NCBI GenBank assembly: GCA_022846075.1
Contig: AP025582.1
Location: 2,108,001 to 2,172,000, forward strand
Length of the DNA: 64,000 nt
Direction: 5' to 3'
Source: Oscillospiraceae bacterium
GTDB taxonomy: Bacteria > Bacillota > Clostridia > Oscillospirales > Oscillospiraceae
Below the pieces are notes generated by a model that was not told the DNA's origin, made no database searches, and was given only the letters and a program-made list of their open reading frames with translations. The translations under genes were made by a program, and so were the position numbers. How positions within the stretch are numbered: position 1 is the first letter of the stretch; each line of letters starts with the position of its first letter. Below, piece after piece: positions 19,234-44,354 of the stretch.

Positions 19234-19742
19234 TCAATCCCCTCCTTGGTGTTGGCCTTGCCCGTCAAAACGGCGGCCCGATCAAGAATAATGCACAGGA
19301 AGTTCAGCACCATGACTACCGCGCCAAAGGTCACCGCCACATAGTACCAACCGAAGGTCACCGGTGAAGCTCCCACAATCACCGTGATGTTTTCGCTTGC
19401 TAAGGAAACGGCCTGCCAAGTAACTACGGCTAAGAACGCAATGCTGATTAGGTCCGCCACGATAAGGATTACATTCCGTGGCTTCTCCGGAATCAGGTCC
19501 ACAAAAACCTCCAGGCGGATCTGCTTGCCGGCGGCGGTGGCAGATCCCGTTCCCAAGAATACGGCAACCACCAACATGAACACGATGAGGTCTTGTGACC
19601 AAGGCAGTGGCATGAAGGCCACGAACCGCGAAAAAATCTGCAATAACAGAATAAGGAACATAGCCACCATATCAATACCCAAAAGGACGGCGCAGGCCTT
19701 GTTCAGCCCGCCCACCGCTTTTTTCAGAGTTTTGCGCAACAC
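19230..19742 (-). CDS. dctQ: TRAP transporter small permease (DctQ), system 1
   Basis: A 170-residue protein with four membrane helices, the small membrane subunit that pairs with DctM. The motif WSQDLIVFMLVVAVFLGTGSA in the second helix region is typical. The start is probably GTG 19742 (GGGAGGG lies 4 bases upstream), with a TTG one codon later as an alternative; the first upstream GTG, at 19757, overlaps the ribosome site. It is located between the binding protein and DctM. Confidence 0.9.
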   Translation of the reverse strand: MLRKTLKKAVGGLNKACAVLLGIDMVAMFLILLLQIFSRFVAFMPLPWSQDLIVFMLVVAVFLGTGSATAAGKQIRLEVFVDLIPEKPRNVILIVADLISIAFLAVVTWQAVSLASENITVIVGASPVTFGWYYVAVTFGAVVMVLNFLCIILDRAAVLTGKANTKEGIE

Positions 19743-19775
19743 ATTACCCTCCCTCACTCAAGATATAGACCTTCC

Positions 19776-20813: not shown

Positions 20814-20886
20814 AGTGGTCTTCCTTTCCTCATTAAAATATTGTCTTTTCTCTAAAGGCACGGATTCATCAGGCAATAATTATACT

Positions 20887-20903
20887 TGCAAATCTCATGC
20901 CAG
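20887..20903 (-). promoter_or_regulatory. Sigma-54 (-24/-12) promoter of dctP system 1
   Basis: The minus strand reads CTGGCATGAGATTTGCA, which matches the RpoN consensus YTGGCACGrNNNTTGCW at all fixed positions but one, with correct spacing of the GG and GC dinucleotides. It lies 74 bases before the ATG. An ACCGA-N9-TCGGT dyad at 20969-20987 is a possible upstream activator site. A sigma-54 activator gene is encoded 1.6 kb away. Confidence 0.82.
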
Positions 20904-21122
20904 TTTTAAAATCCTTGACAATATTTACAAAAGGGCGGACTGAAAAACCTTGTAATTACACAGTTTTTACCGATTTAATTTTTCGGTCAGTTTTGCCAAA
21001 CAATACAGCAGACAGTATAGCAGCGGAAAAGTGGTAACTCAAAGTTAACCTCAGTTTACATCTTTCTGCCAAAAAAGCTTCTGTCTGTCATATATCCGAT
21101 GAATGCTAGAAGACGATGGATG

Positions 21123-22394
21123 TCAAGAAATGATTTGGGGAAGCGTAAGTCCCGCCTGAGGCATGTAAAGGACTTTGGCCCTTTTATAGTCCGCCAAAAC
21201 CTCCCGAACGACTTGATTTAACGCTTCCTTGGGCTGGCATTCCACTCCCACCCGAGCCATCCGATCCCGGGAAAGATCGGTAATGAGGATAAGCCGGCAA
21301 TGAGACTGGACTTCCCTGACCTTGTAACAATTGAGTCCGCCCATATTCACATTCCGCTCCAGTTCCGCCTTCACTGAAATCAAGTCCGGAAAGCGGCTCA
21401 ACCACTCTTCAAAGGGATCATCCATTTCCTTGCTGCATCCCTCGGCGCATTGCGCCAGACAAATCACGGTCCCCCCTTCCCGCACCGCCCGGGCGGCGTT
21501 ATAAAATCCCTTCTTGCTCTGACGCAGATCCATATCCTTGGGAAAGCCTCCACAAGAGGCAACAACTACATCAGGCCGATCCTTCAGAGGGTAAAGATAG
21601 CGGGCCTTCGCCTTCTCAACGCCGTAGAGGTAAGCGTCACGCCAGTGGCCAGCCACAGCCTCCCGAATGTGACTATGGTCATCGCAAATCACATTTAGGA
21701 GAAAGGCCGGATGAGTAAATGCACAGGCTTCCATAAAGTCCTCGTGGACGGGATTTCCCTCCAATACCCCGGCTTGCGCATTGGGATGGACCACCATTTG
21801 ATGGTTTTGCAGGATGGTGTCTTTTCTTGCGCAGCCGGGAATAATATCTTTCCGACCGCCGCCAAATCCCGCCATATGGTGAACCAGAATACCTCCAGTG
21901 AGGATCAGTTTGTCCGACTCTAAAGCAATTTTGTTCGCCCATACATCATGGCCATAACTGGTGGTGCCGACCAGCACACACGGCGAATGCACGCAGTCAT
22001 GCTGGACCACCCGGACCCGACGGTAAATATCTTCGGTGATCAGACTCACCATCTGTTCCTCAGTCATTGCGCTGTGCATTCCGTTGGCAAAGAGCAGGGT
22101 GATGTCCTGATCCGGTACCCCCGCCCGGTTCAATTCTTCCACCAGCACCGGGATATAAATATGGCTGCGGGTAAGCCGGGTAATATCGTTCGTGAGAATA
22201 CACACACTGTCTCCGGGCCTGATTTCTTGGTTCAAATGCCCGCTTCCAACGGGATGGAGCAGAGCCGCCCTCACCACCGCCTCCTCATTCAAGACTGCCG
22301 CCGCCTCTTCCCGGGGACGCATGACGGTGAGATCTACTCCATCGGGAATCTCCAGTTCCAGCAGCTCTTTTCCGTATTTGACTTGATCTTTCAC
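21123..22394 (-). CDS. LarA-family nickel-pincer-dependent racemase/epimerase
   Basis: A 423-residue protein of the lactate racemase family. Residues matching the LarA active site are present with the right spacing: H107 (ANGMHSAMT), H172 (VHHMAG), K182 in GGGRKDIIPG (the lysine that binds the pincer nucleotide) and H198. These enzymes interconvert stereoisomers of 2-hydroxy acids, and family members act on substrates other than lactate. It lies between the TRAP operon and the divergent sigma-54 activator, suggesting it racemises the imported hydroxy acid. No larB, larC or larE cofactor genes are in the window. Confidence 0.88.
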   Translation of the reverse strand: MKDQVKYGKELLELEIPDGVDLTVMRPREEAAAVLNEEAVVRAALLHPVGSGHLNQEIRPGDSVCILTNDITRLTRSHIYIPVLVEELNRAGVPDQDITLLFANGMHSAMTEEQMVSLITEDIYRRVRVVQHDCVHSPCVLVGTTSYGHDVWANKIALESDKLILTGGILVHHMAGFGGGRKDIIPGCARKDTILQNHQMVVHPNAQAGVLEGNPVHEDFMEACAFTHPAFLLNVICDDHSHIREAVAGHWRDAYLYGVEKAKARYLYPLKDRPDVVVASCGGFPKDMDLRQSKKGFYNAARAVREGGTVICLAQCAEGCSKEMDDPFEEWLSRFPDLISVKAELERNVNMGGLNCYKVREVQSHCRLILITDLSRDRMARVGVECQPKEALNQVVREVLADYKRAKVLYMPQAGLTLPQIIS

Positions 22395-26475: not shown

Positions 26476-27714
26476 TCAAAAAGCAAAGAGCTTAAAGAAG
26501 CCCAGCAAACCGAGCAAGGCCGTAAAAGCAATGAACAAAAGTGCCGTCAAAAGAAGCTGATTGAACATTTTCTGCTTATCCACACTCTCCGGAGTCCCCG
26601 CCAGACACATGCCGCCCACCGTCGAGAGCGGACTGATGACCACCCCATTGATGCCCACACAGACACAGAGCACCAGCGTGCTCAAGCTGACGGCGGAGCC
26701 CATCTGCTCAGCGATGGCGGCACAGGCCGGGATAAGGGTAGGCATCGCCACACCGGTGCCGCTGGACACCGCCCCCAGCAGGGCTCCGCAGATCATCATG
26801 ACCGGATAGACCGTGGTGGAATTCATAAGAGCGGAAACTTTTTCCGACAGCAGGTCGATGCCTCCGGCCTCCACCACTACATGTACAAAGATGGACATGC
26901 CGGCAATCATCAGCACCGTGTTCCAGGGCATGGATCTGATGACAGCCTTTTCCTCCGCAAAATCCATCAGCAGTAAAATCCCCGCCAGGGCATAGGCCAG
27001 CAGGCTGATCTCCTGATGAAAGACCAGAGTCCCCACCAACACCGTGAAAATGGCCGCAAGGGTGATGGCCTGCTTCACGGTGAGTTTTTCCAGTGTCCCC
27101 GTAATGACCTGATCGTCCCGCTGCAGCTTCCAGCCGCCCAGAAGGAAGTAGGCCCCGAAGGAGAATACGGTCATGCAAAGGCCGTAGGCCAGAAAAATGG
27201 GGGTATAGCCCACCACGCCGACCTCCGCGGCCAGGCCGGACGCCACGATGCCGTTGAGGGCCAAAGGGGACATGCCTCCCACCATCAGTCCGCCCATGCT
27301 CATGATGGCCATGACCATAGGCGGGATGGCGTTTTGTACGCCAATGGTCATAGCCAGGGGCAGCAGCAGCCCGCACAGGGGCGCTCCGCCGCCGATGCCG
27401 GAGAGGACCGCGCAAAAGAGGAAAAATATGATCGGCAGGACCTTTCGGTTGCCCCGGGCAAAACAGACGATGCTTCTCGCCAGCCGCTCGGTGGTGCCGT
27501 TGGCGTTAGCGATGCCGAAGAGCAGGCAGACACCCAGCGTGGTAAAGATCACATTGGAGGGCCATCCATCCACATAGATGGCCTTGGCCTTCATGCCCAG
27601 GCCGAAGATCCCGACGAGATAGGCAAATACCACGGCCAGGATCCCGCAGTTTTTCTTGAATTTGGCCCCACAGAAAATCACAAAGGCCAGACAGAGCAGG
27701 CTGATAACTGCCAT
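26476..27714 (-). CDS. MatC-like / ion-transporter-superfamily dicarboxylate carrier
   Basis: A 412-residue polytopic membrane protein with 11-12 helices. I choose ATG 27714 because GGAGG lies 8 bases upstream, rather than the ATG at 27729. The layout and segments such as GIANANGTTERLARSIV, GGGAPLCGLLLPLAM and AIMSMGGLMVGGMSPLALNGIV resemble MatC_N/CitMHS-type carriers for malonate, citrate and other carboxylates. It lies inside the LeuB-aconitase operon, so it likely moves the substrate or product of those enzymes. A GC hairpin (27735-27753) sits in the gap before it. Confidence 0.75.
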   Translation of the reverse strand: MAVISLLCLAFVIFCGAKFKKNCGILAVVFAYLVGIFGLGMKAKAIYVDGWPSNVIFTTLGVCLLFGIANANGTTERLARSIVCFARGNRKVLPIIFFLFCAVLSGIGGGAPLCGLLLPLAMTIGVQNAIPPMVMAIMSMGGLMVGGMSPLALNGIVASGLAAEVGVVGYTPIFLAYGLCMTVFSFGAYFLLGGWKLQRDDQVITGTLEKLTVKQAITLAAIFTVLVGTLVFHQEISLLAYALAGILLLMDFAEEKAVIRSMPWNTVLMIAGMSIFVHVVVEAGGIDLLSEKVSALMNSTTVYPVMMICGALLGAVSSGTGVAMPTLIPACAAIAEQMGSAVSLSTLVLCVCVGINGVVISPLSTVGGMCLAGTPESVDKQKMFNQLLLTALLFIAFTALLGLLGFFKLFAF

Positions 27715-27792
27715 AGGGGGTTCCTCCATTCCATCGGGCGGTTCGGCCGCCCGTCTCTCTATTGTTGTTTCAGGTCTTAAAATACGCGCACT

Positions 27793-28878
27793 TCACTTGG
27801 TGATCCGTGCGGCGGTCTGGACCCCCATCTCCTCAGTCGTGGATCTGATCTGACCGGGAGCGTCCCGATAGATGTCGGGAGTGCGGTAGCCGTCATGGAG
27901 CACGGCGTTGATGGCCCGGTCCACCGCCGCAGACTCCTCCTTGAGCCCAAAAGCGATGTCCAGCATCATCCCCACCGCCCCGATAGCCGCCAGAGGATTG
28001 GCGATCCCCTTGCCGGCGATGTCAGGAGCGGTGCCGTGGATGGGCTCATAGAGGCCAAAATTCTTGTCGTTGATGGCCGCCGAGGCCAGCATCCCCACCG
28101 AGCCGGTGGTCACCCCGGCCTCGTCGGAGAGAATGTCACCAAAGATGCTGGTGGTGAGCATCACGTCGAACCGGCTGGGGTTGCAGGCCAGCTCCATGGC
28201 CGCTTTATCCACCAGCAGATGGGTAAGCTCCACGTCGGGGTAGTCGGCATCGTGGACCCGGGTCACCGTCTCCCGCCACATACGGGAAGACTCCAGGGCG
28301 TTGGACTTGTCTATGCTGGTCACGCTGCCGCGCCGGGTTCGTGCGATCTCAAAGGCGCGGCGGGCCACTCGCTCCACCTCGAAGGCGCTGTAACACTCCA
28401 CGTCGTAGCCCTCGACGCCGTACTTTCCCTGACGGGTCCCCTTCTCTCCGAAATAGATGCCGCCGGTCAAGTCCCGGATCAGCATCAGGTCCACCCCCTT
28501 GTTCACCACCTCGGCCTTTAGCGGCGAGTTGTCCTTCAAATCCTCGTAGATTTTGGCAGGGCGGAGGTTGCAGAAGAGATTGAAGGTCCGCCGCAGGGCG
28601 GCCAAGCCGCTCTCCGGCCTGTCCTTTCGGGGCAGGTGATCCCACTTGGGCCCCCCGGCGGCACCAAAAAGGATAGCGTCACAGCTCTCACAAATTTTAA
28701 GTGTCTCCTCCTGTATCGGGGTGCCAAACGCGTCGATGCAGCAGCCCCCCACCAGGCGCTTCTCATAGCGGAACGTGTGTCCATAGACACCGGCAATCTG
28801 ATCCAGGGCCCGAACCGCTTCACGGGTCACGTCTACGCCGATACCGTCCCCAGGAATAACCGCAATTTTGAATTCCAT
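27793..28878 (-). CDS. LeuB-family (3-isopropylmalate-type) dehydrogenase
   Basis: A 361-residue NAD-dependent beta-decarboxylating dehydrogenase. Substrate motif NLRPAK, the catalytic TGGIYFG/R-x2-G region, the SIDKSNALE segment and [21 protein letters not shown] (NAD-binding) are all present, favouring LeuB over isocitrate dehydrogenase. In the specificity helix the sequence is [10 protein letters not shown] (88-97), equivalent to PExGLLxLR in LeuB: the second leucine is an alanine (A93), enlarging the pocket for the gamma substituent. It is encoded within the aconitase/LeuDC operon rather than with leuA or ilv genes, which suggests a catabolic role. Biosynthetic LeuB remains the alternative. 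Confidence 0.88.
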
Positions 28879-28965: not shown

Positions 28966-30759
28966 TCAAAAATCCCGGGGATCCGCCACCGCGCCGGCAA
29001 TGGCAGTCACCGCCGCTACGGCCGGAGAGCAGAGATAGGACAAGGTTTTCTTTGTCCCCTGCCGGCCGATAAAGTTCCGGTTCGCGGTGGAGAGGATACG
29101 CTCGTCGTCGGCCATCAGGCCATAGGGCATCCCACAGCATAGCCCACAGCAGGGATGACTCACCACCGCCCCCGCCTCCACAAAGGTCTGGATATAGCCC
29201 AAGCGAATGGCCTCCTTATAGACCCGGTTGGTGGCGGGTACCACGATGAAGCGCAGGTCGGGAGCCACCCGCTTTCCCTTGAGATACCTGGCCGCGATGG
29301 CCAGATCCTCCAAATCCCCGTTGGTGCAGGAGCCCAGATAAACCTCGTCGATCCGAGTGCCCAGCAGCTCGGAGACCGGGTGTACATTGTCCACGCCCTG
29401 GGGGCAGGCGATTTGAGACTCCAAGTTGGTGACGTCATAGGTCAGAACCTTCTCGTAGCGGTCGTCCTCCCCCGCCCTTACCCAGGCGATCTCCTCCAGG
29501 GGCATGTCGTAATACGCGGCGGTTTTCTCATCGCACTCGAAAAGTCCGCACTTGGCCCCAGCCTCCAGCGCCATGTTGGCGATGGTGAACCGAGCCGCCA
29601 TGGACATTTCCCGCACGGCGGGGCCCACAAATTCCAAGCTCTTGTATTGGCCGCCGTCAGCCTTGATGTCCCCCAAAATCTTTAAAATCACGTCCTTGGA
29701 GGCCACCCCCTCCGGCAGGTGGCCGTTGAGGACAATTTTGATGGCCTGGGGCACCTTGAGCCACAGCTCCCCGGTGATAAGCGCGGCGCACATCTCAGCG
29801 GTGCCAATACCGGTGCTGAAGTTGCCCGCGCCGCCGTAGGTCGTGGTGTGAGAGTCGGTGGCGACCGCGATCTCTCCAGGGCGCGCGTAGCGCTTCTCGT
29901 GCATGATCGTGTGACAGATCCCCTCGCCGATGTGGTGCTTTTTGACGCCGAACTCCTCCCCGATAGACAGCCCGGCGCGGTAGTGACTGGTGTCGTTGCT
30001 GGCCACAGCGGTGGGCATACAGTGGTCGTAGACCACGGCCACTCTGTCGGGAGCCGCCAGCTTTTTTGCTCCCATACGGTGGAGGGTGTCCAACACGTAA
30101 GGGGTATAGATATCATGGATCAGAAAGAAATCAGGGTGGGTAATGAGAATGTCTCCAGGTGCGCAGTCCGCGGCCCCCGTGTTGGCCATCAGCAGCTTTT
30201 CCGCCATGGTGTGGTTGCCCGCCCCCCGCTCCGCCAGGGGCAAGGGCGTTCCGCAGGTCGGCTTCTGCCCCGCGGCCAGCCGCCGCTTGGTGTCCTCCAC
30301 GAGGCCGCCGTTGGCGACAATTTGAAGCAGGTTATCGGGACAGCTCCCGATGGGAAAGGTATGCCCGTTTACCGAAACACTTTTTCCCACCTCGACGCTG
30401 ACCGTATCCCCCTCCTCGCAGAAATCCTGGATCTGATCGCAGGTCACCAGCAGGATGCCGGAATTGAAAGCATTGCGGAAAAAGATGCGGGCAAAGCTCT
30501 TGGCAATGATACAGCGCACCCCATTGCCCGACAGGACAGTGGCCGCCTGTTCCCGGGAGGAGCCGCAGCCAAAGTTGGTTCCGGCCACCAGAATATCTCC
30601 CGGCCGGACATTGGCTCCAAATTCCGGCTTCAGCAGTTCAAAAGCATACTTTTTCATCTCTTCGATCGTCGGGATGGTCCCCCGCCTGCCGGGGATGATG
30701 GTGTCGGTATCGATGTCGTTACCGAATTTCCAGATCCGGCCACGGAACGCTTTTTCCAT
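28966..30759 (-). CDS. LeuD-LeuC fusion: isopropylmalate isomerase/homoaconitase-type hydro-lyase
   Basis: A 597-residue protein in which a small-subunit (LeuD, swivel) domain at residues 1-160 precedes a large-subunit (LeuC) domain at 185-597, so it is a fusion in reversed order. LeuD motifs: NDIDTDTIIPG, NFGCGSSREQA, AKSFARIFFRNA. LeuC motifs: YDHCMPT, ATDSHTTTYGG, and cluster ligands C478 (LGSCTN) and C538/C541 (HPCCGLCCG, with two extra cysteines). The substrate-recognition loop after IIPG reads RRGTIPT instead of the YLRT or YLVY type, so an unusual substrate is likely. It lies 15 bases after the Fe-S-less paralogue in one operon. Confidence 0.88.
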   Translation of the reverse strand: MEKAFRGRIWKFGNDIDTDTIIPGRRGTIPTIEEMKKYAFELLKPEFGANVRPGDILVAGTNFGCGSSREQAATVLSGNGVRCIIAKSFARIFFRNAFNSGILLVTCDQIQDFCEEGDTVSVEVGKSVSVNGHTFPIGSCPDNLLQIVANGGLVEDTKRRLAAGQKPTCGTPLPLAERGAGNHTMAEKLLMANTGAADCAPGDILITHPDFFLIHDIYTPYVLDTLHRMGAKKLAAPDRVAVVYDHCMPTAVASNDTSHYRAGLSIGEEFGVKKHHIGEGICHTIMHEKRYARPGEIAVATDSHTTTYGGAGNFSTGIGTAEMCAALITGELWLKVPQAIKIVLNGHLPEGVASKDVILKILGDIKADGGQYKSLEFVGPAVREMSMAARFTIANMALEAGAKCGLFECDEKTAAYYDMPLEEIAWVRAGEDDRYEKVLTYDVTNLESQIACPQGVDNVHPVSELLGTRIDEVYLGSCTNGDLEDLAIAARYLKGKRVAPDLRFIVVPATNRVYKEAIRLGYIQTFVEAGAVVSHPCCGLCCGMPYGLMADDERILSTANRNFIGRQGTKKTLSYLCSPAVAAVTAIAGAVADPRDF

Positions 30760-30774
30760 ATCACTCTTTCCCCC

Positions 30775-31896
30775 TTAAAGCCGTCCAGTCACGGCCGCTT
30801 TCACTACGGATTCCACCGAAGCGGTGTAGACCTCGCCCCCCAGCGCTCCCATACAGCCGTCAAAGGTGTATAGGCCTGTGGTGACAAGCCGTTCCCCCCG
30901 GTCGATGACTCCGGCCCCCTGCCGGACCACACTGCGCTCCCCCGCCGCCAGGACCTGGGCGTTGAACGCGATAAAATGTTCGATCAAGCCCTCGTCGAGG
31001 GCCATCAGGTAGTCCCGGCTGGTGGCGGGCACTATGGAGAGGCGAAACCCTCTAGCAAGTGTCTGGCCCTCCATCCACCGGGCGGCCATCCGCAGATCGT
31101 CAATGGTTCCACCGGTGAAGCCGCCGATCTGGCCCGCCTGAACCTCCATACCCGCCGCCTCAGACAGCGGGCAGATGGCGGCAGCGGCCTGTTTCTCCCG
31201 TCCGCCGCAGAGTAGCTGGACCATCGGGACCGCCTCGGATAAAGGCAGGCACAGGTCAGGTACCCCGCCATCCGAGAACAGGGCGGTAAAAGCCCCCGTG
31301 CCGCAAGCCACGCCGCAGAGGATCGCTTTCTCCTGGCGCGTCAAGCGATCCCCGCCCACAAACTGGAGGGCCTTTCCACAAATCCGCCTCCCCAGCTTTT
31401 GAAGCAGAAGCAAGCCAAGATCCAGGGCCGAGCCGCAGGCAAGCGCACCAGTCAATTCCACCGTCATTGTCTCCGGGACAACAATTTGGATCTTTCCCTC
31501 CTCCACCGTGCGCGCCAGCCGGGCCGAAGAAAGGCCCACTCCAAGGGCGCCGATGGCGCCGTAGATCCCGTTGTGCGTCCCGCCCCCTACGACGATTTGC
31601 CCCGGTTGGAGCATCTCGTTCAGCATCCACTGGCGGCCTACCCCCACGCTCTGGACAAACCGACAGCCAAAGCGGTGGGCAAAACGATTGATTTTTCCAA
31701 AGATGGCGGCACCTTCCGAGCTGCCGGCGGGCACGTCGTGGTCATAGATGACCGTCACCCTTTCAGGCGCCGCCACCCGTAATATCCCTTCCATCGCCCG
31801 GTGGGAAGGCCCATCCGTGAGAATGATATGATCCGGCTGAATCTCGACGGCCGTACCAGCTTGTGCTCCCAAAATTTCTTCAATCAAAGCCGCCAT
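30775..31896 (-). CDS. Aconitase-superfamily (LeuC-like) protein lacking Fe-S ligands
   Basis: A 373-residue protein that aligns along its length with the LeuC half of the next gene: ILTDGPSHRAMEGI, VIYDHDVPAGSSEGA, QIVVGGGTHNGIYGAIG, IVPATSRDYLMAL. The three cluster cysteines are gone: the GSCTN site is GGFTG, and the CxxC stretch near the C-terminus reads RSVVRQGAG. The catalytic DSH triad is GTH. It should therefore not bind a [4Fe-4S] cluster or work as a normal hydro-lyase. It is the first gene of the operon, so it is probably expressed, not a relic. Roles as a regulatory subunit, sugar-acid binder or a new enzyme are all open. Confidence 0.8.
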   Translation of the reverse strand: MAALIEEILGAQAGTAVEIQPDHIILTDGPSHRAMEGILRVAAPERVTVIYDHDVPAGSSEGAAIFGKINRFAHRFGCRFVQSVGVGRQWMLNEMLQPGQIVVGGGTHNGIYGAIGALGVGLSSARLARTVEEGKIQIVVPETMTVELTGALACGSALDLGLLLLQKLGRRICGKALQFVGGDRLTRQEKAILCGVACGTGAFTALFSDGGVPDLCLPLSEAVPMVQLLCGGREKQAAAAICPLSEAAGMEVQAGQIGGFTGGTIDDLRMAARWMEGQTLARGFRLSIVPATSRDYLMALDEGLIEHFIAFNAQVLAAGERSVVRQGAGVIDRGERLVTTGLYTFDGCMGALGGEVYTASVESVVKAAVTGRL

Positions 31897-31937: not shown

Positions 31938-31954
31938 ATATTTTTATATTTAAT

Positions 31955-31983
31955 ATATAATCATTTTTAATTTAATATGTCAA
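31955..31983 (-). promoter_or_regulatory. Sigma-A promoter of the LeuC-like/LeuDC/LeuB operon
   Basis: On the minus strand TTGACA (31978-31983) and TTATAT (31955-31960) are 17 bases apart, 59 bases before the start at 31896. Five genes down to 24510 have gaps under 90 bases and could share this promoter. Confidence 0.75.
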
Positions 31984-32077: not shown

Positions 32078-32106
32078 TTGACAATTTACCATAGGTTTAC
32101 TATGAT
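32078..32106 (+). promoter_or_regulatory. Sigma-A promoter of the LacI-family gene
   Basis: TTGACA (32078-32083) and TATGAT (32101-32106) with a 17-base spacer, divergent from the promoter at 31955-31983. Confidence 0.85.
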
Positions 32107-32164: not shown

Positions 32165-33187
32165 ATGGCAACGCTAAAGGATGTCGCCCAGCGGGCGGGC
32201 GTCTCACTCACCACCGCATCCATCGTCGCCAATGGACGCGGCGAGGAAAAGCATATTTCTCCCGCCACCATAGAACGGGTCGCCACTGTTATTGAAGCGT
32301 TGGGGTATCACCCCAACCAGAACGCTCAGCAGCTTCGGGCAAAAAATGCCCGCCAACCCGTCATCGCCTTTTACTGGCCTTTGGATTATCGGGCCAATAT
32401 GCTGGGCATACGGCTGGTCAACCTTCACAGCGTGCTGCTGGAGCAGGAACTGAACTATGAAATCGTGGTACAGACCTATTTCAACAATCAACTGGAGCGG
32501 TTTTTACCGCCTCTTCAGGATGGCCGCTACACCGGAGCTATCATCGCGGGGGCCAGCGACCAGGATATGGTCCAGCTGGAGTCCACAAAAATTACTGTCC
32601 CAGTGATTTTGATCAACCTGGAAAGCCGGAAGTATTCTACCGTTGGGGTCAGCCATGCCCAAATGGGCGCCCAAGCGGCGGCTCTCCTGCACAAAAAGGG
32701 CTACCAGGAATGTGCCGTCGTCAAATCCATGGAACGTTATGGAGGCACCGCCCGGCGCACCAAAGCCTTCCTCTACTCCTGCAAACAGCTCGGCATCACG
32801 GTCCGCCCCGAATGGACCTTCAGCGCCCCGGCCACTATTCTCGGCGGCGTACAGGCCACAGAAGAATTCTGCGCTCTGACAGAACGGCCCGGGGTCATCT
32901 TCTATGAAACAGACTGTATGGCTCAAGGTGGCTTATATACCTTGCAGCGGCGGAGGATTGCTGTTCCGGGCGACATCGAACTCTTGAGCATCGGGGTACA
33001 GGAGCCAGAGACCATGCAGTATCTCACCCCCTCCATCAGCTGTGTCACCGTACCACCCAACGTGGACAAGCAGGCCATGTCCATTATGATCCGCATTTTG
33101 CAGGAGCACCCAGAAGAACCCCTCCATCTGGAGTTGGAACCTCTGATCCAGCTCCGGGAGAGCTTCACCCTCCCTTCGCCTCTCTGA
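32165..33187 (+). CDS. LacI-family transcriptional regulator
   Basis: A 340-residue regulator. The N-terminal headpiece ATLKDVAQRAGVSLTTASIVANG (residues 2-24) is a classical LacI helix-turn-helix. The hinge is atypical: the segment EKHISPATIERVATVIEALGYHPNQNAQQL leads into a periplasmic-binding-protein-like effector domain (from about residue 60). ATG 32165 is preferred (GGAGG 8 bases upstream) over longer starts in the AT-rich leader. Being divergent from the aconitase/LeuDC operon, it most likely represses that operon and itself, responding to a sugar acid or carboxylate. Confidence 0.92.
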   Translation: MATLKDVAQRAGVSLTTASIVANGRGEEKHISPATIERVATVIEALGYHPNQNAQQLRAKNARQPVIAFYWPLDYRANMLGIRLVNLHSVLLEQELNYEIVVQTYFNNQLERFLPPLQDGRYTGAIIAGASDQDMVQLESTKITVPVILINLESRKYSTVGVSHAQMGAQAAALLHKKGYQECAVVKSMERYGGTARRTKAFLYSCKQLGITVRPEWTFSAPATILGGVQATEEFCALTERPGVIFYETDCMAQGGLYTLQRRRIAVPGDIELLSIGVQEPETMQYLTPSISCVTVPPNVDKQAMSIMIRILQEHPEEPLHLELEPLIQLRESFTLPSPL

Positions 33188-35142: not shown

Positions 35143-35973
35143 TTACAGCCAGCCCAGCGCCTCTCGCAAGCTTTGATCCACAAAATCCCAATCAAAGAAA
35201 ATCCGGGTCTCTTTTCCCGAATAGCCGGGATAGTTACCCTCCAGACGGGCAGCCAGAGCGCGGTTCATCTCACTTTTTGCCCCCTCCTTGCTCCAAATCT
35301 GGAGGATGCGGGGTGGCTCTTCGGCATCCGCCATCTCTGCACAGCGGGCGGGCAGGTCATTCTCTCCCTCAGCGTGCAAAGTTCCAAAAATTGCCTCAAA
35401 CTGCTCTCTGCGCTCCGGGCGGTGATCCATAAGCCATTGCAAATCGGTATCCCCTTCAATGGAGAAAACGGCGGAGAACAGCTCTGGGTGGGCCATCGCC
35501 AGCTTCAAGGCGCCAAAGCCTCCCATGCCCACACCGCCGACATAGGTCTTGCTGCGGTCACGGCTCACAGGCAGGAGACGGCGGATATGCTCTACCATCT
35601 CAAGAAGATACGTTCCATAGCGCATCTCTGTAAAGTCGTTCTCAATGTTCCCCGCTCCAGCGCTGTTGGCGGCGTTTTGGTTGGCGTCCCGTTGGGCGTA
35701 ATCGGTGTACCAGCTGAGAAGTCCTTGCGGCATAACCACCACCACGCCGGCCTCGTCGGCAAAGCGTTGAATGTTGGTCATGGCGCACAGCTCGCCGGGG
35801 GATGAGGCCTCGTCGTGAAGCAGGAACAGGAGCGGATAATTTTGCTGAAAGGACCCCAGCCGGAGCTCCCTGGAATTTTCCCGGCGGACGTGTTTCTTTT
35901 GAGGGACGGCAATCAGCAGGTCCATCCGGTCCTTTACACAATCCACAGTACAATTCAGCCGCAGAAAGGCCAT
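35143..35973 (-). CDS. Alpha/beta-hydrolase, EstA/tributyrin-esterase-like (first copy)
   Basis: A 276-residue serine hydrolase-like protein of the putative-esterase (esterase D / EstA) family. After N-terminal sheets it has PLLFLLHDE and a nucleophile elbow region GGVGMGGFGALKLAMAHPELF. The usual elbow GxSxGG is G-V-G-M-G-G, so the nucleophile Ser is replaced by Gly, which may make it inactive as an esterase. It starts at ATG 35973 after GGGAGGGG, overlapping the upstream esterase stop by one base. The two are paralogues and are encoded between the symporter and the oxidoreductase. Confidence 0.75.
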   Translation of the reverse strand: MAFLRLNCTVDCVKDRMDLLIAVPQKKHVRRENSRELRLGSFQQNYPLLFLLHDEASSPGELCAMTNIQRFADEAGVVVVMPQGLLSWYTDYAQRDANQNAANSAGAGNIENDFTEMRYGTYLLEMVEHIRRLLPVSRDRSKTYVGGVGMGGFGALKLAMAHPELFSAVFSIEGDTDLQWLMDHRPERREQFEAIFGTLHAEGENDLPARCAEMADAEEPPRILQIWSKEGAKSEMNRALAARLEGNYPGYSGKETRIFFDWDFVDQSLREALGWL

Positions 35974-36779
35974 CAGCCTTCCCCTCCCTTCGCAAACCAG
36001 TCCAGAAACAGGTGGAGCCCTTGTCCATGGATGCCCCATCCGTGGGGCCCCGGAATCAAATGGAAGGTGTAGTCCAGATGCTTCAGCTGTTTCATATGCG
36101 CGTTCATGTGCTCATTGGGAATCGCCAGGTAGTCCTCCTCTCCCCAGCTCTGAAAAAGCTTGGGCAGGCACTTCTCCCCGGCGGCGGCCCGGGCGTCCAT
36201 TTGGGCGGTGATGGCATAGAGGTCGTATTTGGTATCCCGAATAGTGAGATCGTCTCCGAATTGGCGTTGATGCTTGATTGTCATGAACGGCCGGTTCGCC
36301 ACCGCCCACTCCATATCCAGCATCCCGCTCTGCGCCCCCACAAAGCCATAGGTCTCCGGGTTGTTAAGGCCGCAGTAGTAGGCCCCCCAGCCGCCCATGG
36401 AACAGCCATAGATCGCGGTATCCTCCCGGCGGCAGGACAGAGGAAACAGTGTGCGGGTCATCTCTACCAGCTCTTTGGTGATATAGGTGAAGTATTGGTG
36501 GGCAAAACGGTACTCCTTCTGATAGTCGGTGTAAAAGCTGAAAGTCGGAGTAACGCAGAAAATCGCCGTGTTTTCCAACGCCCGTCCTTCAAAGTAAGAG
36601 GCCAGATCGGTCTCGGTAAAAAGACCGTCGGCACCGCTGAGCGCGCCCGGGAGCAGATAGACGGTCCGCAGTTTCCCCTCTCGGGGGAGGAGATCCGGAA
36701 ACAGGGCACAGACCTGGGTCGGTCTGCCCAGCGCTTCAGAATGCCATTCGGCTTGCAGTATTTGGCCTGGCATAGGCAT
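35973..36779 (-). CDS. Alpha/beta-hydrolase, EstA/tributyrin-esterase-like (second copy)
   Basis: A 268-residue esterase family protein. The nucleophile elbow GCSMGGWGAYYCGLN near residue 120 keeps the GxSxGG pattern, so this copy should be catalytically competent, unlike the neighbouring copy. The start is taken at ATG 36779 (GAGAGGA upstream). The family cleaves short-chain acyl or methyl esters, or S-formylglutathione-type thioesters. Its place between transporter and 2-oxoacid oxidoreductase suggests that it de-esterifies an imported compound. Confidence 0.82.
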   Translation of the reverse strand: MPMPGQILQAEWHSEALGRPTQVCALFPDLLPREGKLRTVYLLPGALSGADGLFTETDLASYFEGRALENTAIFCVTPTFSFYTDYQKEYRFAHQYFTYITKELVEMTRTLFPLSCRREDTAIYGCSMGGWGAYYCGLNNPETYGFVGAQSGMLDMEWAVANRPFMTIKHQRQFGDDLTIRDTKYDLYAITAQMDARAAAGEKCLPKLFQSWGEEDYLAIPNEHMNAHMKQLKHLDYTFHLIPGPHGWGIHGQGLHLFLDWFAKGGEG

Positions 36780-36837
36780 ATTCCTCTCTGATCGTTTTTC
36801 TTGGTGATAGGCAGTAACAACGGTAGAATCACTAGAT

Positions 36838-37383
36838 TTACTTCTGCGCTCTTCCCAGCTCCAGGCCCTTGTCAAATGCCTGCTTGTTGAGGGGCAGGAG
36901 CTTGGGCTTGCTGGAGAGCTTGTGCTCGATGGTCTGCCAGACGATCTCCGGGGCGATGACCTCGGTGTAGCCCACGTACACCCCCAGCATAATGACGTTG
37001 AGCACCTTGGCGCTGCCCATCTCCAGGGCCAGCTCGGTCACCGGGGCCTTCACCAGCTTCACGTCGGCGCGGTCGATCTGGTCGGAGACGATGGAGCTGT
37101 TGATGAACAGGGTGCCGTTTTTCTTCAGCTTGGGCAGGAATTTATTGAGGGACGGGCCGTTCATCACAATGAGGTCGTCCATCACGTCCCCCAGGGGCGC
37201 CCCCACCTCCTCGTCGGAGATGACCACGTAGCAGTTGGCGGTGCCGCCCCGCTGCTCGGCGCCGTAGGAGGGGAAAAAGGTCACTTTCTTATCGGTGGAA
37301 TTGCAGGTGGCGTCGGCCAGGAACTTCCCCAGGGTCATGACCCCCTGGCCGCCGAAGCCGGCCACACAAAGATTGGTTTCCAT
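36838..37383 (-). CDS. 2-oxoacid:ferredoxin oxidoreductase, gamma subunit
   Basis: A 181-residue gamma subunit with the standard N-terminus CVAGFGGQGVMTLGKFLADA and AEQRGGTANCYVVIS. It completes a four-subunit enzyme (delta ferredoxin, alpha, beta, gamma) that oxidatively decarboxylates a 2-oxoacid to acyl-CoA, reducing ferredoxin. It is the last of the four genes on this strand, 13 bases after the beta subunit. Confidence 0.94.
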   Translation of the reverse strand: METNLCVAGFGGQGVMTLGKFLADATCNSTDKKVTFFPSYGAEQRGGTANCYVVISDEEVGAPLGDVMDDLIVMNGPSLNKFLPKLKKNGTLFINSSIVSDQIDRADVKLVKAPVTELALEMGSAKVLNVIMLGVYVGYTEVIAPEIVWQTIEHKLSSKPKLLPLNKQAFDKGLELGRAQK

Positions 37384-37396
37384 GTTCTCTCCTCCT

Positions 37397-38134
37397 TCAG
37401 CGGTCCCGCACGACGCCCAGCGGGAACTCGGGCAGCATCTTTTCCTCGATGAAGTCCAGGCTTTGCAGGGCGTCCATGCCCCAGTTGGTGGGGCAGCCGG
37501 TGACGATCTCCACCATGGAGAAGCCCTTGCCGTCCAGCTGGTTCTGGAACGCCTTCCTGATGGCGTTCTTGGTCTTCATCACGTTCTGGGGGGTGTTGCA
37601 GCTGGTGCGCTCCAGGTAGGCCGGGGCGGTGAGCTGGTTCAAAATCTCGCACATGTGCATGGGGTAGCCGTGCTCCTTGGGGTCCCGGCCCTTGGGGGCG
37701 GTGGAGGCCTTCATTCCCACCAGGGTGGTGGGGGCCATCTGGCCGCCGGTCATGCCGTAGATGCCGTTGTTGATGAAGATGACGGTGATGTTGTCCCCCC
37801 GGTTGGCGGCGGACATGGTCTCGGCCAGGCCGATGGAGGCCAGGTCGCCGTCCCCCTGGTAAGTATACACCAAAGTGTCCGGGTTGGCCCGCTTCATCCC
37901 CGTGGCCACCGCACAGGCCCGGCCGTGGGGGGCGGTGGTGTTGTCGTAGGCCATGTAGTCCATGTGCAGCCCGCAGCAGCCGATGCCCAGCACGGCGGCG
38001 GCCCTGTCCACACAGTTCATCTCCTCCAGCACCTCGCCGATGAGCTTGATGACGGTGGAGTGCATACACCCGGGGCAGAAGCCGGAGACTTTGTCCTCCT
38101 GGATGGTCTTGGTCCTCGTATAGATCTTTTCCAT
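37397..38134 (-). CDS. 2-oxoacid:ferredoxin oxidoreductase, beta (TPP-binding) subunit
   Basis: A 245-residue subunit. FCPGCMHST near the N-terminus supplies a conserved C-x2-C. The thiamine pyrophosphate/Mg motif is GDGDLASIGLAETMSAANRG ending in INNGIYGMTGGQ. The FeS ligand GIGCCGLH is also visible. It forms the catalytic core with the alpha subunit, encoded 3 bases upstream. Confidence 0.95.
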   Translation of the reverse strand: MEKIYTRTKTIQEDKVSGFCPGCMHSTVIKLIGEVLEEMNCVDRAAAVLGIGCCGLHMDYMAYDNTTAPHGRACAVATGMKRANPDTLVYTYQGDGDLASIGLAETMSAANRGDNITVIFINNGIYGMTGGQMAPTTLVGMKASTAPKGRDPKEHGYPMHMCEILNQLTAPAYLERTSCNTPQNVMKTKNAIRKAFQNQLDGKGFSMVEIVTGCPTNWGMDALQSLDFIEEKMLPEFPLGVVRDR

Positions 38135-38137
38135 TGC

Positions 38138-39217
38138 TCAGCCCTCCATGATGGTCTTGGCCGCGGCGAGAATGGCCTCACGGCTCATGATGTTGCCGCC
38201 GGAGCAAAGGCACTTCTCCACCCTGCAGCGGTCCTTCACGCCCACCAGCACGTCATTGACGAACTGGGCGGGGATGGACATCTCCACGTCCAGCACCGCC
38301 TTCACCTTCTTATAATCGATGTGGTCGTAGGCGGCGTAGGGGAAGGGATGGACGGTGATGGGCCGGATGAGGCCGGCCTTGACCCCCTGCTGGCGCAGCA
38401 GGTTCACGGCGGATTTGGCGATGCGGGCGGAGATGCCGTAGGCGGTGAGGACCAGCTCGGCGTCCTCCACCAGGTACTCCTCCGCCTGGGCGTCCTTCTC
38501 CCAGGAGCGGTACAGGGCCTCCGCGGCCTCGTTCTCCTCCTGCATCCGCGCCGTGGACCACTGGCCCGGCTGGATCCAGGCCCGGTGGGCGTAGTCCAGC
38601 GGGTGGCCCACGCAGGCCCAGCTCTTCTTGCCCTCCTTGATGGCGGCGATCTCGGCGTCCGACTTCATCTCCGGCAGCACCACCGGCTCCATCATGGTGG
38701 CGATGACGCCGTCGGCCAGGATGAGGACGGGGTTGCGGTTCCGGTCGGCGTAGTCGAAGGCCTGATAGGTCATGTCCACCGCCTCCTGGACGGTGGAGGG
38801 GGCAAAGACCATCATCTGGAAGCCGCCGTTGCCGCTGGCCTTGGTGGCCTGGAGGTAGTCCTGCTGGGCGGGCTGGATGGAGCCCACCCCCGGGCCGCCC
38901 CGGGCGAAGTTGGCGTACACCATGGGCACCCGGGCGGCGGCGCAATAGCTGATGCCCTCGCTCTTCAGGGAAATCCCGGGGCTGGAGGAGGAGGTCATGG
39001 ACCGCACCCCCATGGAGGCCGCGCCATAGACCATGTTGATGGACGCCACCTCGCTCTCCCCCTGGACGAACACCCCGTTCACCTCCGGCAGCCGCCGGGA
39101 GAAGTACTCCGGCACCTCGTTCTGGGGGGTGATGGGATAGCCGGCAAAGAACCGGCACCCGGCCCGGACGGCGGCCTCGGCTACCGCCTCCGTGCCCTTC
39201 ATAAATACTCTCGCCAT
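38138..39217 (-). CDS. 2-oxoacid:ferredoxin oxidoreductase, alpha subunit (VorB/KorA-like)
   Basis: A 359-residue subunit with MKGTEAVAEAAVRAGCRFFAGYPITPQNEVPEYF at its start; the YPITPQ loop is the 2-oxoacid-binding motif. The length and arrangement match VorB-type (branched-chain 2-oxoacid) and KorA-type enzymes; the sequence does not decide which. Given the LeuB-type enzyme nearby, a branched 2-oxoacid would fit. The four-gene set is highly GC-rich and may be older than the flanking genes. Confidence 0.93.
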   Translation of the reverse strand: MARVFMKGTEAVAEAAVRAGCRFFAGYPITPQNEVPEYFSRRLPEVNGVFVQGESEVASINMVYGAASMGVRSMTSSSSPGISLKSEGISYCAAARVPMVYANFARGGPGVGSIQPAQQDYLQATKASGNGGFQMMVFAPSTVQEAVDMTYQAFDYADRNRNPVLILADGVIATMMEPVVLPEMKSDAEIAAIKEGKKSWACVGHPLDYAHRAWIQPGQWSTARMQEENEAAEALYRSWEKDAQAEEYLVEDAELVLTAYGISARIAKSAVNLLRQQGVKAGLIRPITVHPFPYAAYDHIDYKKVKAVLDVEMSIPAQFVNDVLVGVKDRCRVEKCLCSGGNIMSREAILAAAKTIMEG

Positions 39218-39230
39218 GTTCTTTCCCTCC

Positions 39231-39434
39231 TTATTTGTACACGTCGATGGCCCCGTCGGGGCACATCCGGGCGCAGATGGCGCACCCGATGCACGCCTCC
39301 GGCTTCACCGGCTCCACGTACTCATACCCCTTCGAGTTCACCTTCGTCCCGATGGCCAAAACCCCCTTGGGGCAGAACTTGATGCAGTACCCGCAGCTCT
39401 TGCACCGCTCCGCTACGATCTCTACTTTTGCCAT
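39231..39434 (-). CDS. Ferredoxin-like 4Fe-4S delta subunit of 2-oxoacid oxidoreductase
   Basis: A 67-residue ferredoxin with two C-x2-C-x2-C-x3-C clusters: ERCKSCGYCIKFCPKG near the N-terminus and EACIGCAICARMCPDG at the end, so it binds two [4Fe-4S] clusters. It starts the four-gene oxidoreductase set, 14 bases upstream of the alpha gene, and takes electrons from the alpha/beta core. Confidence 0.95.
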   Translation of the reverse strand: MAKVEIVAERCKSCGYCIKFCPKGVLAIGTKVNSKGYEYVEPVKPEACIGCAICARMCPDGAIDVYK

Positions 39435-39521
39435 ACCAAAATCTCCCTTCCTCCAAAACCGTACAACACGCGCCGTCTTTCAGCGCCCCTGTTTATCACC
39501 GCCGCTTTGTTAACGCCTTAC

Positions 39522-40421
39522 TTACTGATGGCAAACAGCGCTCTGGCAGCTTACCAACGCAGCCTGAATCTCAGCTGCCATGTCTTTTGCGGCGGCGTTG
39601 AGGGCGTCCAGGTCATACCCGGTTTCAATCCCCATAGAGTGAAGCATATACACCAGGTCCTCCGTGGCAATGTTCCCTTTCGCGCCGGGAGCGAAGGGAC
39701 ACCCTCCCATACCGCCCAGAGAAGCATCCAGCATGGTGATCCCTTCCTCCAGTGCCACATAGGCGTTGGCAAGACCCATACCATAGGTGTCATGAAGGTG
39801 TACGCTCACTTTATTCAAATCGGTATACTCCCGGATTGCCCGCAGAACCCGCCGGGTGTGCTCCGGATTGCTGATGCCGGCGGTATCAGCCACGCCAAAT
39901 TCCGCCACACCTACGCTCTCCGCCTCTTCAATGAGCCATTTCAGCCGGTCCATGGGGACCTCATCCCCAAAGGGGGAGCCAAACACACAGGGCATAGCCA
40001 GGATAATATGGAGGTCCCGCGCCTCCCGGGCCAGAGTCTTCAGCCCATCCAAGGACTCCTGAATGGTCCGGCGGGAATTGCGCAGGTTGTGTTCCTCACT
40101 GGCAGAGAGTACAAACACCACCCGCTGGAACCCGGCAGCTCTGGCATCCTCCACACCGTGCTTATTCAGGGCCAGGGCAAAATGCATGATGCCCTTTTCC
40201 TTTAAATAAGGAATGACCGCCCGCGCCACCTCTTTGGCGTCTCCCATCTGTGGGACATATTTCGGGCTGACAAAGGAGGTGGTCTCCATTTTTTTTGCGC
40301 CGCACTCCGCCATCCGCTTGATGTATTTGACCTTCGTTGCGGCGGGTATGGCCACCGGGTGGTTTTGCCAGCCATCCCGGGGACAAACTTCGCAAACCGT
40401 CACCTTTTTAGGCATTGCCAT
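39522..40421 (-). CDS. HMG-CoA-lyase-like enzyme (DRE-TIM metallolyase)
   Basis: A 299-residue protein of the hydroxymethylglutaryl-CoA lyase family. CEVCPRDGWQN near the N-terminus gives the metal Asp and catalytic Arg; HLHDTYGMGLANAY provides the metal histidines; and SLGGMGGCPFAPGAKGNIATED is the HMGL signature with the loop cysteine. Homologues paired with CaiB-type transferases can act on other 3-hydroxyacyl-CoA thioesters such as citramalyl-CoA. It lies 15 bases after the CoA-transferase, pointing to CoA activation followed by retro-aldol cleavage to acetyl-CoA or an equivalent. Confidence 0.88.
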   Translation of the reverse strand: MAMPKKVTVCEVCPRDGWQNHPVAIPAATKVKYIKRMAECGAKKMETTSFVSPKYVPQMGDAKEVARAVIPYLKEKGIMHFALALNKHGVEDARAAGFQRVVFVLSASEEHNLRNSRRTIQESLDGLKTLAREARDLHIILAMPCVFGSPFGDEVPMDRLKWLIEEAESVGVAEFGVADTAGISNPEHTRRVLRAIREYTDLNKVSVHLHDTYGMGLANAYVALEEGITMLDASLGGMGGCPFAPGAKGNIATEDLVYMLHSMGIETGYDLDALNAAAKDMAAEIQAALVSCQSAVCHQ

Positions 40422-40436
40422 GTCGTATCACCCCTT

Positions 40437-41654
40437 TCAGTTCATGATCCCCTTGGCCCGATAGGCCCGAAGCTGTTCGTCGCTGAATCCCAGCTCTTTG
40501 AAGATGGCCTCGTTATCCTCGCCCAAATCGGGGGCAGCCTTCACATATTGACACGGCGTTTCCTCCATTTTGATGGGATTCCCCAGCACCGTAAGCTCAT
40601 CAGGCACCTCCGGGTGCTTTGCCGGGCGGGGAACTTTCACCAGCATTTCCCGAGTCTCCACGATGTTTTTATCCTTACAGACCTGCTCGCAGTTATAGAT
40701 AGGCGCCACCGGAATTCCGGCGCCGTCAATGATCTCCACCACCTCGGATACGGTCTTGCTGGATGCCCAGCCTTCAATAACCTGTTTCAGGCTGTCAGCA
40801 TTCTTCTTCCGGCTCTCGGTATCGATGTACAAAGGATCTTTGGCCAACTCAGGCATCCCCATAGCGGCAGACAGGCTCTCAAAGTGTTTATCCGTGCCGG
40901 AGGCGATGACAAAATAGTCATCCTTAGCCTTAAAGGAGTCATAGGGGGCGCTGGAAATGTATTTGTTGCCGCTCATAGTGGGAGAAACGCCCTCATAGAG
41001 GTACTGCATCAGTTTTGCTTCCATGCCCGAGACGATAGAATCCACAAGGGCCACGTCGATATGGTTGCCCTTTCCGGTCTCCTTGCGCTTGAAGAGAGAA
41101 GCACAGATGGCAAAACCAGCGTTAAGGCCGGCAAACATGTCCCCGATGGCCATGCCTGCGCGGGTAGGCTCCATTCCGGGCCAGCCGGTAATCGACATAG
41201 ATCCGCCCATGGCCTGGGCAATCAGGTCATAGCCCGGCCGACGGGAATAAGGGCCATACTGGCCGAATCCAGAAATAGAGGCATAAATCAGCCGGGGATT
41301 CAGCTTTCGGCAATCCTCCCAGCCAAAGCCCAGCCGAGCCATCACGCCGGGGCGGTTGTTCTCAATCAGAACATCGGCGGATTTCACCAGCTCCGCAAAC
41401 AGTTCCTTGCCCTCAGGCTGTTTCAAATCCAGGGCCACGCCCCGTTTGTTGCGGTTCAGATTTTGAAAGTACATGCTGATCTCGGTGTCCTTCACCTTGG
41501 GTCTGGCATTACGCACGAAATTACCTCCGCTACGAAGATTTTCGAACTTGATGACATCAGCTCCCAGATCAGCAAAATACATTCCAACGTAAGGTCCTGC
41601 CAAAAAGTCAGTAAAGTCAATGACACGGATCCCTTTCAGCAATTGTTCAGGCAT
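40437..41654 (-). CDS. Class III (CaiB/BaiF, Frc-type) CoA-transferase
   Basis: A 405-residue family III CoA-transferase. The N-terminus KGIRVIDFTDFLAGPYVGMYFADLGADVIKFE is diagnostic. The catalytic aspartate is in RPGYDLIAQAMGG near residue 150. It would transfer CoA between an acyl-CoA donor and a carboxylic acid. It opens the HMGL operon and has a sigma-54 promoter at 41699-41715, which links it to the activator in the neighbouring cluster. The acceptor acid is unknown. Confidence 0.9.
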   Translation of the reverse strand: MPEQLLKGIRVIDFTDFLAGPYVGMYFADLGADVIKFENLRSGGNFVRNARPKVKDTEISMYFQNLNRNKRGVALDLKQPEGKELFAELVKSADVLIENNRPGVMARLGFGWEDCRKLNPRLIYASISGFGQYGPYSRRPGYDLIAQAMGGSMSITGWPGMEPTRAGMAIGDMFAGLNAGFAICASLFKRKETGKGNHIDVALVDSIVSGMEAKLMQYLYEGVSPTMSGNKYISSAPYDSFKAKDDYFVIASGTDKHFESLSAAMGMPELAKDPLYIDTESRKKNADSLKQVIEGWASSKTVSEVVEIIDGAGIPVAPIYNCEQVCKDKNIVETREMLVKVPRPAKHPEVPDELTVLGNPIKMEETPCQYVKAAPDLGEDNEAIFKELGFSDEQLRAYRAKGIMN

Positions 41655-43157: not shown

Positions 43158-43207
43158 GGTACATCTCTAACAATATCCGAAAAATTAAAATGGAAAGGAA
43201 GAAGTTT

Positions 43208-44338: not shown

Positions 44339-44354
44339 GCGAGGAGGCACAGCT

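Follow-up and report, generated by a model that had tools for sequence, protein, structure and literature searches.

The aconitase superfamily is the standard case of an iron-sulfur cluster acting as a Lewis acid, and in aconitase the arginines R447 and R452 bind the substrate carboxylates. Regulatory members occur in eukaryotes, where IRP1 and IRP2 bind RNA and carry a domain 4. PMC8184944 describes aconitase X (AcnX, types I and II) as having an aconitase fold with cluster and substrate sites unlike the classical ones and clusters carried on other cysteines, gives Cys257 as one of the four ligands of the linear cluster form of mitochondrial aconitase, and includes the view that the ancestral fold had no cluster. 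On the metabolic side, a Peribacillus plasmid locus (L031, 1775-7675) combines an aconitase-type isomerase and a beta-decarboxylating dehydrogenase in an organic-acid catabolic setting, with genes for a CaiB-type CoA-transferase, LeuC, LeuD, an HMG-CoA lyase, an Asp/Glu racemase and a tartrate dehydrogenase.

In the window, the 64,000-nucleotide stretch of DNA analysed here, we found a gene for a LeuC-like protein that has lost the canonical ligands of the [4Fe-4S] cluster, which we call dLeuC (Table 1). Its frame runs from an ATG without frameshift or internal stop. The best sequence and predicted-fold matches are large subunits of the LeuC/homoaconitase type (hacA; MJ0499, 4kp1, and MJ1003, 4kp2), with which dLeuC shares the fold and full-length homology; the nearest solved structures are the large subunits of homoaconitase and isopropylmalate isomerase from Methanocaldococcus jannaschii. 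Unlike these proteins, dLeuC lacks the canonical cluster cysteines, the substrate arginines, D165 and H147, and is about 24 residues shorter after the GAFTAL motif. The Pfam Aconitase model PF00330 scores 89.2 bits against a cut-off of 28.7. The 15 matching NCBIfam models, mostly of LeuC, homoaconitase and aconitase, all stay below their cut-offs, including the curated LeuC/hacA models TIGR01343 (172.1 bits for a required 385.7), NF001614 (168.9 for 385) and TIGR02083 (111.7 for 610.65). When a profile built from three members of the dLeuC family is compared with six LeuC-type rows, the alignment spans 364 columns (hhalign probability 100, E 1.4e-46). The earlier note's alignment with the LeuC half of the neighboring LeuDC protein is borne out, at about 26% identity.

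Table 1. Features of the dLeuC locus in the window, with the basis of each assignment
Feature	Position	Strand	Basis or remark
dLeuC, LeuC-like protein without canonical [4Fe-4S] ligands, 373 aa	30775..31896	-	intact frame and PF00330
LeuDC, 597-aa fusion of an N-terminal LeuD with a C-terminal LeuC	28966..30759	-	TIGR02087 172.4 bits (cut-off 108.95), NF001614 487.2 bits (cut-off 385)
Gap between dLeuC and LeuDC, 15 nt, with G-rich ribosome-binding site	30760..30774	-	14 nt in L009, 13 nt in L011
LeuB-like beta-decarboxylating dehydrogenase	27793..28878	-	TIGR00169 446.2 bits (cut-off 353.2)
MatC/CitMHS-type carboxylate transporter	26476..27729	-	PF07158 and PF03600
Aconitase with its own C-terminal domain, 645 aa	24510..26447	-	NF005558 846.5 bits (cut-off 612)
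LacI-family regulator, divergent	32165..33187	+	56% and 50% identical to the L009 and L011 counterparts
Probable LacI operator TTTACTAAA	32054..32062	.	only TTTA[CG]TAAA copy in the 64-kb window, in the divergent gap
Possible dLeuC promoter, TTGACA-18-TATATA, 10/12	31954..31983	-	looser scan; 95 of 500 base shuffles reach at least 10
GGGTH, residues 104-108, corresponding to the DSH region; D165 replaced by G, H167 kept	31573..31587	-	alignment
GGFTGG, residues 258-263, corresponding to GSCTNG; lacks the first cluster cysteine, C358	31108..31125	-	alignment
RSVVRQGAG, residues 321-329, within the segment matching the CGPC region; E320 stands opposite C421 and V323 opposite C424	30910..30936	-	alignment
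TTGLYTFDGCMG, residues 339-350, counterpart of STxNRNFxGRxG; R447 replaced by Y343 and R452 by C348 in all four members	30847..30882	-	alignment

We predicted the structure of dLeuC with AlphaFold2. The model is of modest confidence (pLDDT 63.5), and it was built from a five-row alignment including three ordinary aconitase/LeuC rows, which steer it. Its best structural match is 4kp2_A (E 1.4e-20, TM-score 0.68, rmsd 8.3), and pLDDT falls below 50 at residues 230-238, 319-332 and 344-352, in the loops of the old active site. Homology and predicted fold place dLeuC in the aconitase superfamily (domains 1-3), as a conserved LeuC paralogue lying outside the classical [4Fe-4S] enzymes, the curated LeuC families and AcnX. 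Similarity to IRP1 and IRP2, which are also superfamily members, is only weak. AcnX shares with dLeuC an aconitase fold with altered sites, but it is a dehydratase that binds its cluster through cysteines of its own, and dLeuC is much nearer LeuC. We rejected assignment of dLeuC to AcnX, as PF00330 is the sole Pfam family found in the four known members (E <= 0.01). A search of one open-access literature collection with limited terms returned no description of a dLeuC-like protein.

Residues were mapped in the numbering of mitochondrial aconitase, taken from chain 5acn; the roles of C358, C421, C424, D165, H147, H167, H101 and S642 follow PMC8184944. All three cluster cysteines are replaced in the window protein (C358 by F260, C421 by E320, C424 by V323), and across the four members these positions read F/I/Y/Y, E/D/D/D and V/V/V/V. 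The catalytic and substrate positions show H147 replaced by R88 (R/Y/Y/Y across the family), D165 by G106, R447 by Y343 and R452 by C348, the last three with the same replacement in every member; E262, here G199, is lost in only two of the four. Kept throughout are the D100-H101 pair (D52-H53) and H167 (H108). The earlier note had read GGFTG and RSVVRQGAG in place of the cysteine motifs, exactly as we find them. Its change of DSH to GTH is likewise present in the window, but the middle residue varies in the family (T, R, S, S), and the shared loss is that of the aspartate. With these positions gone, ordinary aconitase chemistry by dLeuC is very unlikely.

Three relatives of dLeuC were found, in L009, G617 and G830 (57%, 53% and 51% identical to the window protein, respectively), the first by a species-wide scan and the other two, which belong to one genus, by genome searches. 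Counting the own genome where it belongs, dLeuC was detected in 1 of 300 genomes of its own family, 1 of 16 of its genus, 2 of 394 of the order, 2 of 247 of the family of G617 and 2 of 4 of the genus of G617; the class gave 2 of 391 (one being an ordinary LeuC), the phylum 1 of 348, and the relatives of the L009 genome 1 of 104, namely L009 itself. The genome searches came to 1997 with repeats, in overlapping sets, at thresholds of E <= 1e-60 (family and family of G617), 1e-40 (order) and 1e-50 (others), which may have passed over members with identities far lower than 50%. The scan of 84,980 species, which worked from six 8-residue patterns, yielded neither G617 nor G830; these may be absent from the collection. 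A candidate fifth member (G1221/L016, E 2e-55) was rejected as an ordinary LeuC with its cysteines. Viral contigs scanned with dLeuC and LeuC alignments gave no relative, and the plasmid collection gave 64 matching records, all below 60% identity, the ten listed lying at 26.0-28.3%. The family is rare and spread over at least two families of one order.

The relatives bear directly on the possibility that dLeuC is a decaying or misassembled relic of LeuC, which could be suspected from its lost catalytic residues and its faster change relative to LeuDC. By the Nei-Gojobori method the close pair G617-G830 has a dN/dS of 0.113, and the other pairs, whose dS exceeds 1.2 and is near saturation, lie at 0.19-0.37; the corresponding values for LeuDC are 0.049 and 0.06-0.19. 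In the close pair dN is 0.096 for dLeuC and 0.042 for LeuDC, so that dLeuC changes about twice as fast. Because the same replacements recur in all four members, each with an intact frame in its own genome, and dN/dS stays between 0.11 and 0.37, the losses are not due to chance or error. Decay, frameshift and misassembly are refuted by these shared, constrained replacements, and a relic is barely credible. The earlier note, which had judged that relics do not look like this, had named homologues with cysteines restored in shifted positions, dN/dS near 1 and a frameshift as observations that would speak against it. The canonical cysteines are restored in none of the three relatives, dN/dS is well below 1, and the gene has no frameshift. 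That all three relatives retain both the losses and the neighbor suggests a job of its own for dLeuC.

Across the four members 151 of 373 positions are invariant. In segments of ±4 residues around the 15 active-site positions, 57% of residues are invariant against 36% elsewhere, a contrast equalled in only 2 of 372 circular shifts, which serve as a yardstick and not as a probability, the segments having been picked after the alignment was seen; with half-widths of 2 and 6 the counts are 11 and 3 of 372. Moreover, 43 residues are invariant in dLeuC yet absent from 15 LeuC/aconitase rows, and 21 of them fall within the active-site segments, where 9.3 are expected (3 of 372 shifts as high). Enriched conservation at the old site would not be expected of a decaying site, and it therefore argues for a re-used cavity. 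Conserved turns may instead reflect a constraint of the fold, since the active LeuDC is also enriched in the same segments (85% against 70%, a smaller contrast than in dLeuC) and the effect in dLeuC weakens when glycine and proline are omitted (33, 6 and 1 of 372 shifts as high for half-widths of 2, 4 and 6). On the alignment evidence, the extra conservation of the altered cavity favors ligand binding or catalysis.

One form that catalysis could take is an independent, cluster-free enzyme, for example a cis-trans isomerase or hydratase that would convert a trans-enoate of the mesaconate or trans-aconitate kind to the cis form for hydration by LeuDC, with D52-H53 and H108 as acid-base residues and C348 or C198 as nucleophile. 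H53 and H108, the counterparts of aconitase H101 and H167, are the only two histidines invariant in the family (the window protein has six). Y343 and C348 take both substrate-arginine positions in all four members, and the 21 newly fixed residues at the old active site fit the same reading. The Asp/Glu racemase superfamily includes the cysteine-dependent maleate isomerase, and the distant Peribacillus LeuC-LeuD locus has a gene annotated as an Asp/Glu racemase. However, the only NCBIfam model matched by that Peribacillus protein is EutA, far below cut-off (98.3 of 318 bits), the nucleophile is proposed by analogy, and dLeuC has no LeuD-like domain to close its cavity. We regard such an enzyme as possible but somewhat doubtful.

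The cysteines raise a related question. Four are invariant (C194, C198, C230 and C348), of which three fall on or next to positions of the former cluster and substrate site in the alignment. C194 corresponds to mitochondrial Cys257, C198 follows four residues later, adjacent to the position of E262, and C348 replaces R452. The cluster could thus have moved within the old cavity, with C194, C198, C348 and perhaps C230 forming a new site for a metal or an Fe-S cluster; the linear-cluster role of Cys257 and the clusters of AcnX on other cysteines, both described in PMC8184944, offer precedents in the same fold. Yet 4 invariant cysteines among 9 is close to the background of 151 among 373 residues, so that the count itself carries no signal, C194 is also found in 6 of 15 ordinary LeuC/aconitase rows, and the predicted model is of low confidence in the stretches around C230 and C348. 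A relocated site is unlikely. The description of the protein as stripped of its Fe-S ligands accordingly holds for the canonical ligands in all four members, but with four other cysteines invariant a cluster-free dLeuC is likely rather than proven.

The constant neighbor of dLeuC is LeuDC. In all four genomes dLeuC lies directly upstream of this rare fusion, and 13-15 nt separate the two genes in the window, L009 and L011. The searches for LeuDC covered 187 and 4 genomes and the plasmid collection. Within the order it occurs in 1 of 187 genomes, the own genome only (E <= 1e-160), and in the genus of G617 two of the four genomes have both genes and two have neither, their closest proteins reaching just 38-39% in the match to the LeuC half of LeuDC. 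Wherever both genes were looked for, they were either both present or both absent. Among plasmids, 609 records match LeuDC, of which 251 cover at least 80% at below 60% identity; two were inspected. A tree was built from 19 LeuC-type rows; the plasmid loci L030 and L032 were omitted because neither yielded a stop-free frame of the expected length and motif. In this tree all four dLeuC proteins group in one clade and all four LeuDC proteins in another (100/100 for both). Both clades separate the window and L009 from G617 and G830 (98/96 and 97/96 for dLeuC, 94/95 and 83/63 for LeuDC). Given this adjacency, co-occurrence and matching of clade splits, the two genes have apparently been inherited or transferred together. 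The G830 copy of LeuDC has a frame broken near its start in the draft genome (L017, about 10170-10264), perhaps an assembly error.

LeuDC itself looks complete. In each of the four LeuDC proteins the LeuC half has the canonical residue at all 15 mapped active-site positions. LeuDC has in addition the GSSRE motif that belongs to the small-subunit domain, and so does not depend on dLeuC for a full active site. It also shows a CCGLCC cluster motif, a small-large order of fusion, and a GRRGTI stretch at what we take to be the place of the substrate-recognition loop of LeuD proteins. This loop was matched to no known substrate; the motif strings searched were absent from the passages of PMC7308503 consulted. 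Another LeuC of the same genome passes the leucine-pathway cut-off of TIGR02083 (685.2 bits against 610.65), and LeuDC is therefore probably not the leucine enzyme. A conserved catalytic loss alongside a complete, co-inherited partner is what a pseudoenzyme partner should display, and the combination is found here, in four members only. The co-occurrence with LeuDC thus favors a partner role for dLeuC.

The surrounding genes suggest a catabolic context. In the window the order is dLeuC, LeuDC, the LeuB-like gene, the MatC/CitMHS-type transporter and the aconitase. The Peribacillus locus differs, its LeuC and LeuD being separate genes in another order, with no degenerate LeuC among the seven annotated genes shown. 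In L011 (6395-18545) the row begins with a pyruvate:ferredoxin oxidoreductase gene that passes its cut-off, followed by dLeuC and LeuDC, phosphate-butyryltransferase-like and CitS-like genes (both below cut-off), a metallo-hydrolase recognized by eye (no NCBIfam match), a butyrate kinase (passing) and a LeuB-like gene (below cut-off). L009 (4408-16619), most of whose genes were assigned by similarity and not by model scan, shares this order as far as the kinase, which is preceded by an MFS transporter gene, and shows no LeuB-like gene in the stretch examined. In L017 an ORF for the later part of pyruvate:ferredoxin oxidoreductase precedes dLeuC. The claim that dLeuC is first in its operon therefore holds for the window but not for L009 and L011. 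From the gene content, the L009 and L011 cassettes would take up a hydroxy-carboxylate, isomerize it, decarboxylate it oxidatively and pass the acyl-CoA via acyl-phosphate to ATP in a fermentation.

Upstream, the motif TTTA[CG]TAAA, which marks the probable operator of Table 1, recurs in the corresponding divergent gaps of L009 (two copies) and L011 (one copy), and these loci contain no further copy; L017 lacks the motif, and no LacI-type ORF is among those listed there. The divergent LacI orthologue and the shared 9-bp site link the cassettes. The promoter argument for dLeuC is weak, since a stricter consensus scan found no site on the minus strand and shuffled sequences often score as well as the candidate from the looser scan; the good promoter of the earlier note is only a fair one. 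The best site (TTGACA-17-TATGAT, 32078-32106) points the opposite way, into the LacI gene.

Several other gene groups were observed in the window. A second organic-acid catabolic operon (36838-41654, minus strand) holds 2-oxoacid:ferredoxin oxidoreductase genes (VorB passing its cut-off), an HMG-CoA lyase family gene (passing) and a CaiB-type CoA-transferase gene whose best match, succinyl-CoA:mesaconate CoA-transferase, is below cut-off. On the same strand, 17944-22394 carries TRAP-type transporter genes (by eye) and a LarA-family racemase-like gene (best NCBIfam match malate racemase LarAH6, below cut-off), and 35143-36875 two slightly overlapping esterase-like genes (by eye) of similar length, one with a weak PHA-depolymerase match and the other with none in NCBIfam. 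On the plus strand, tandem genes of 382 and 395 aa (43190-45494) resemble paralogous M24-type metallopeptidase relatives (by eye).

The regulatory setting invites the reading of dLeuC as a free ligand-binding sensor that would signal to regulation or transport and not act on LeuDC. Its conserved altered cavity, its place as the first gene after the divergent regulator in the window, and the regulatory use of the fold by IRP1 and IRP2 (which appear as weak matches) are in line with this. On the other hand, the LacI regulator already provides a ligand-binding domain, the constant neighbor is LeuDC, and in L009 and L011 a large oxidoreductase gene separates the regulator from dLeuC, which makes a free sensor very improbable.

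Taken together, we give about an even chance to dLeuC being an accessory protein that binds a ligand and is dedicated to LeuDC, in a hydroxy-acid catabolic cassette under LacI control. Having given up the classical iron-sulfur cluster, dLeuC would have become the dedicated partner of the neighboring isomerase. The divergent LacI-type regulator would release co-expression of the two when a hydroxy-carboxylic acid of the citrate or 2-alkylmalate type can be fermented; LeuDC, with its complete active site, would carry out the dehydration and rehydration, and its product would then be oxidatively decarboxylated by the LeuB-like enzyme. Most likely dLeuC would assemble with LeuDC, and its altered cavity (D52-H53, H108, Y343, C348) would bind either the substrate or the unsaturated intermediate, thereby tuning LeuDC or feeding it. 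Caution is due, as the family has four members, two of them near relatives, and dLeuC changes faster than its presumed partner. Against a partner role, a conserved cavity is just as compatible with an independent enzyme, and a binding site would not strictly require that two acid-base residues be retained.

By combining an independent enzyme with a relocated metal site, we arrive at a further reading, which we hold tentatively as a possibility: dLeuC would be the first of an aconitase-superfamily lineage working without the classical cluster, an enzyme whose site is rebuilt from C198, C348, Y343, H53 and H108, with or without a different metal, and which acts on the unsaturated intermediate of LeuDC. 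The earlier note had left a regulatory partner, a cluster-free isomerase and a ligand sensor side by side; co-occurrence with LeuDC now favors the partner and cavity conservation a binding or catalytic role, and the data do not decide among the three. dLeuC may work either as a pseudoenzyme-type partner with a ligand site or as a small enzyme with rebuilt chemistry.

A natural member of the superfamily that has lost its cluster site but whose cavity is still under constraint would reveal what the fold is capable of in the absence of a cluster, and dLeuC is a small, expressible test case. If it is a partner of LeuDC, a metabolic isomerase would have a dedicated pseudoenzyme at its side. For the bacteria that carry it, dLeuC marks a putative LacI-linked cassette for hydroxy-acid fermentation.
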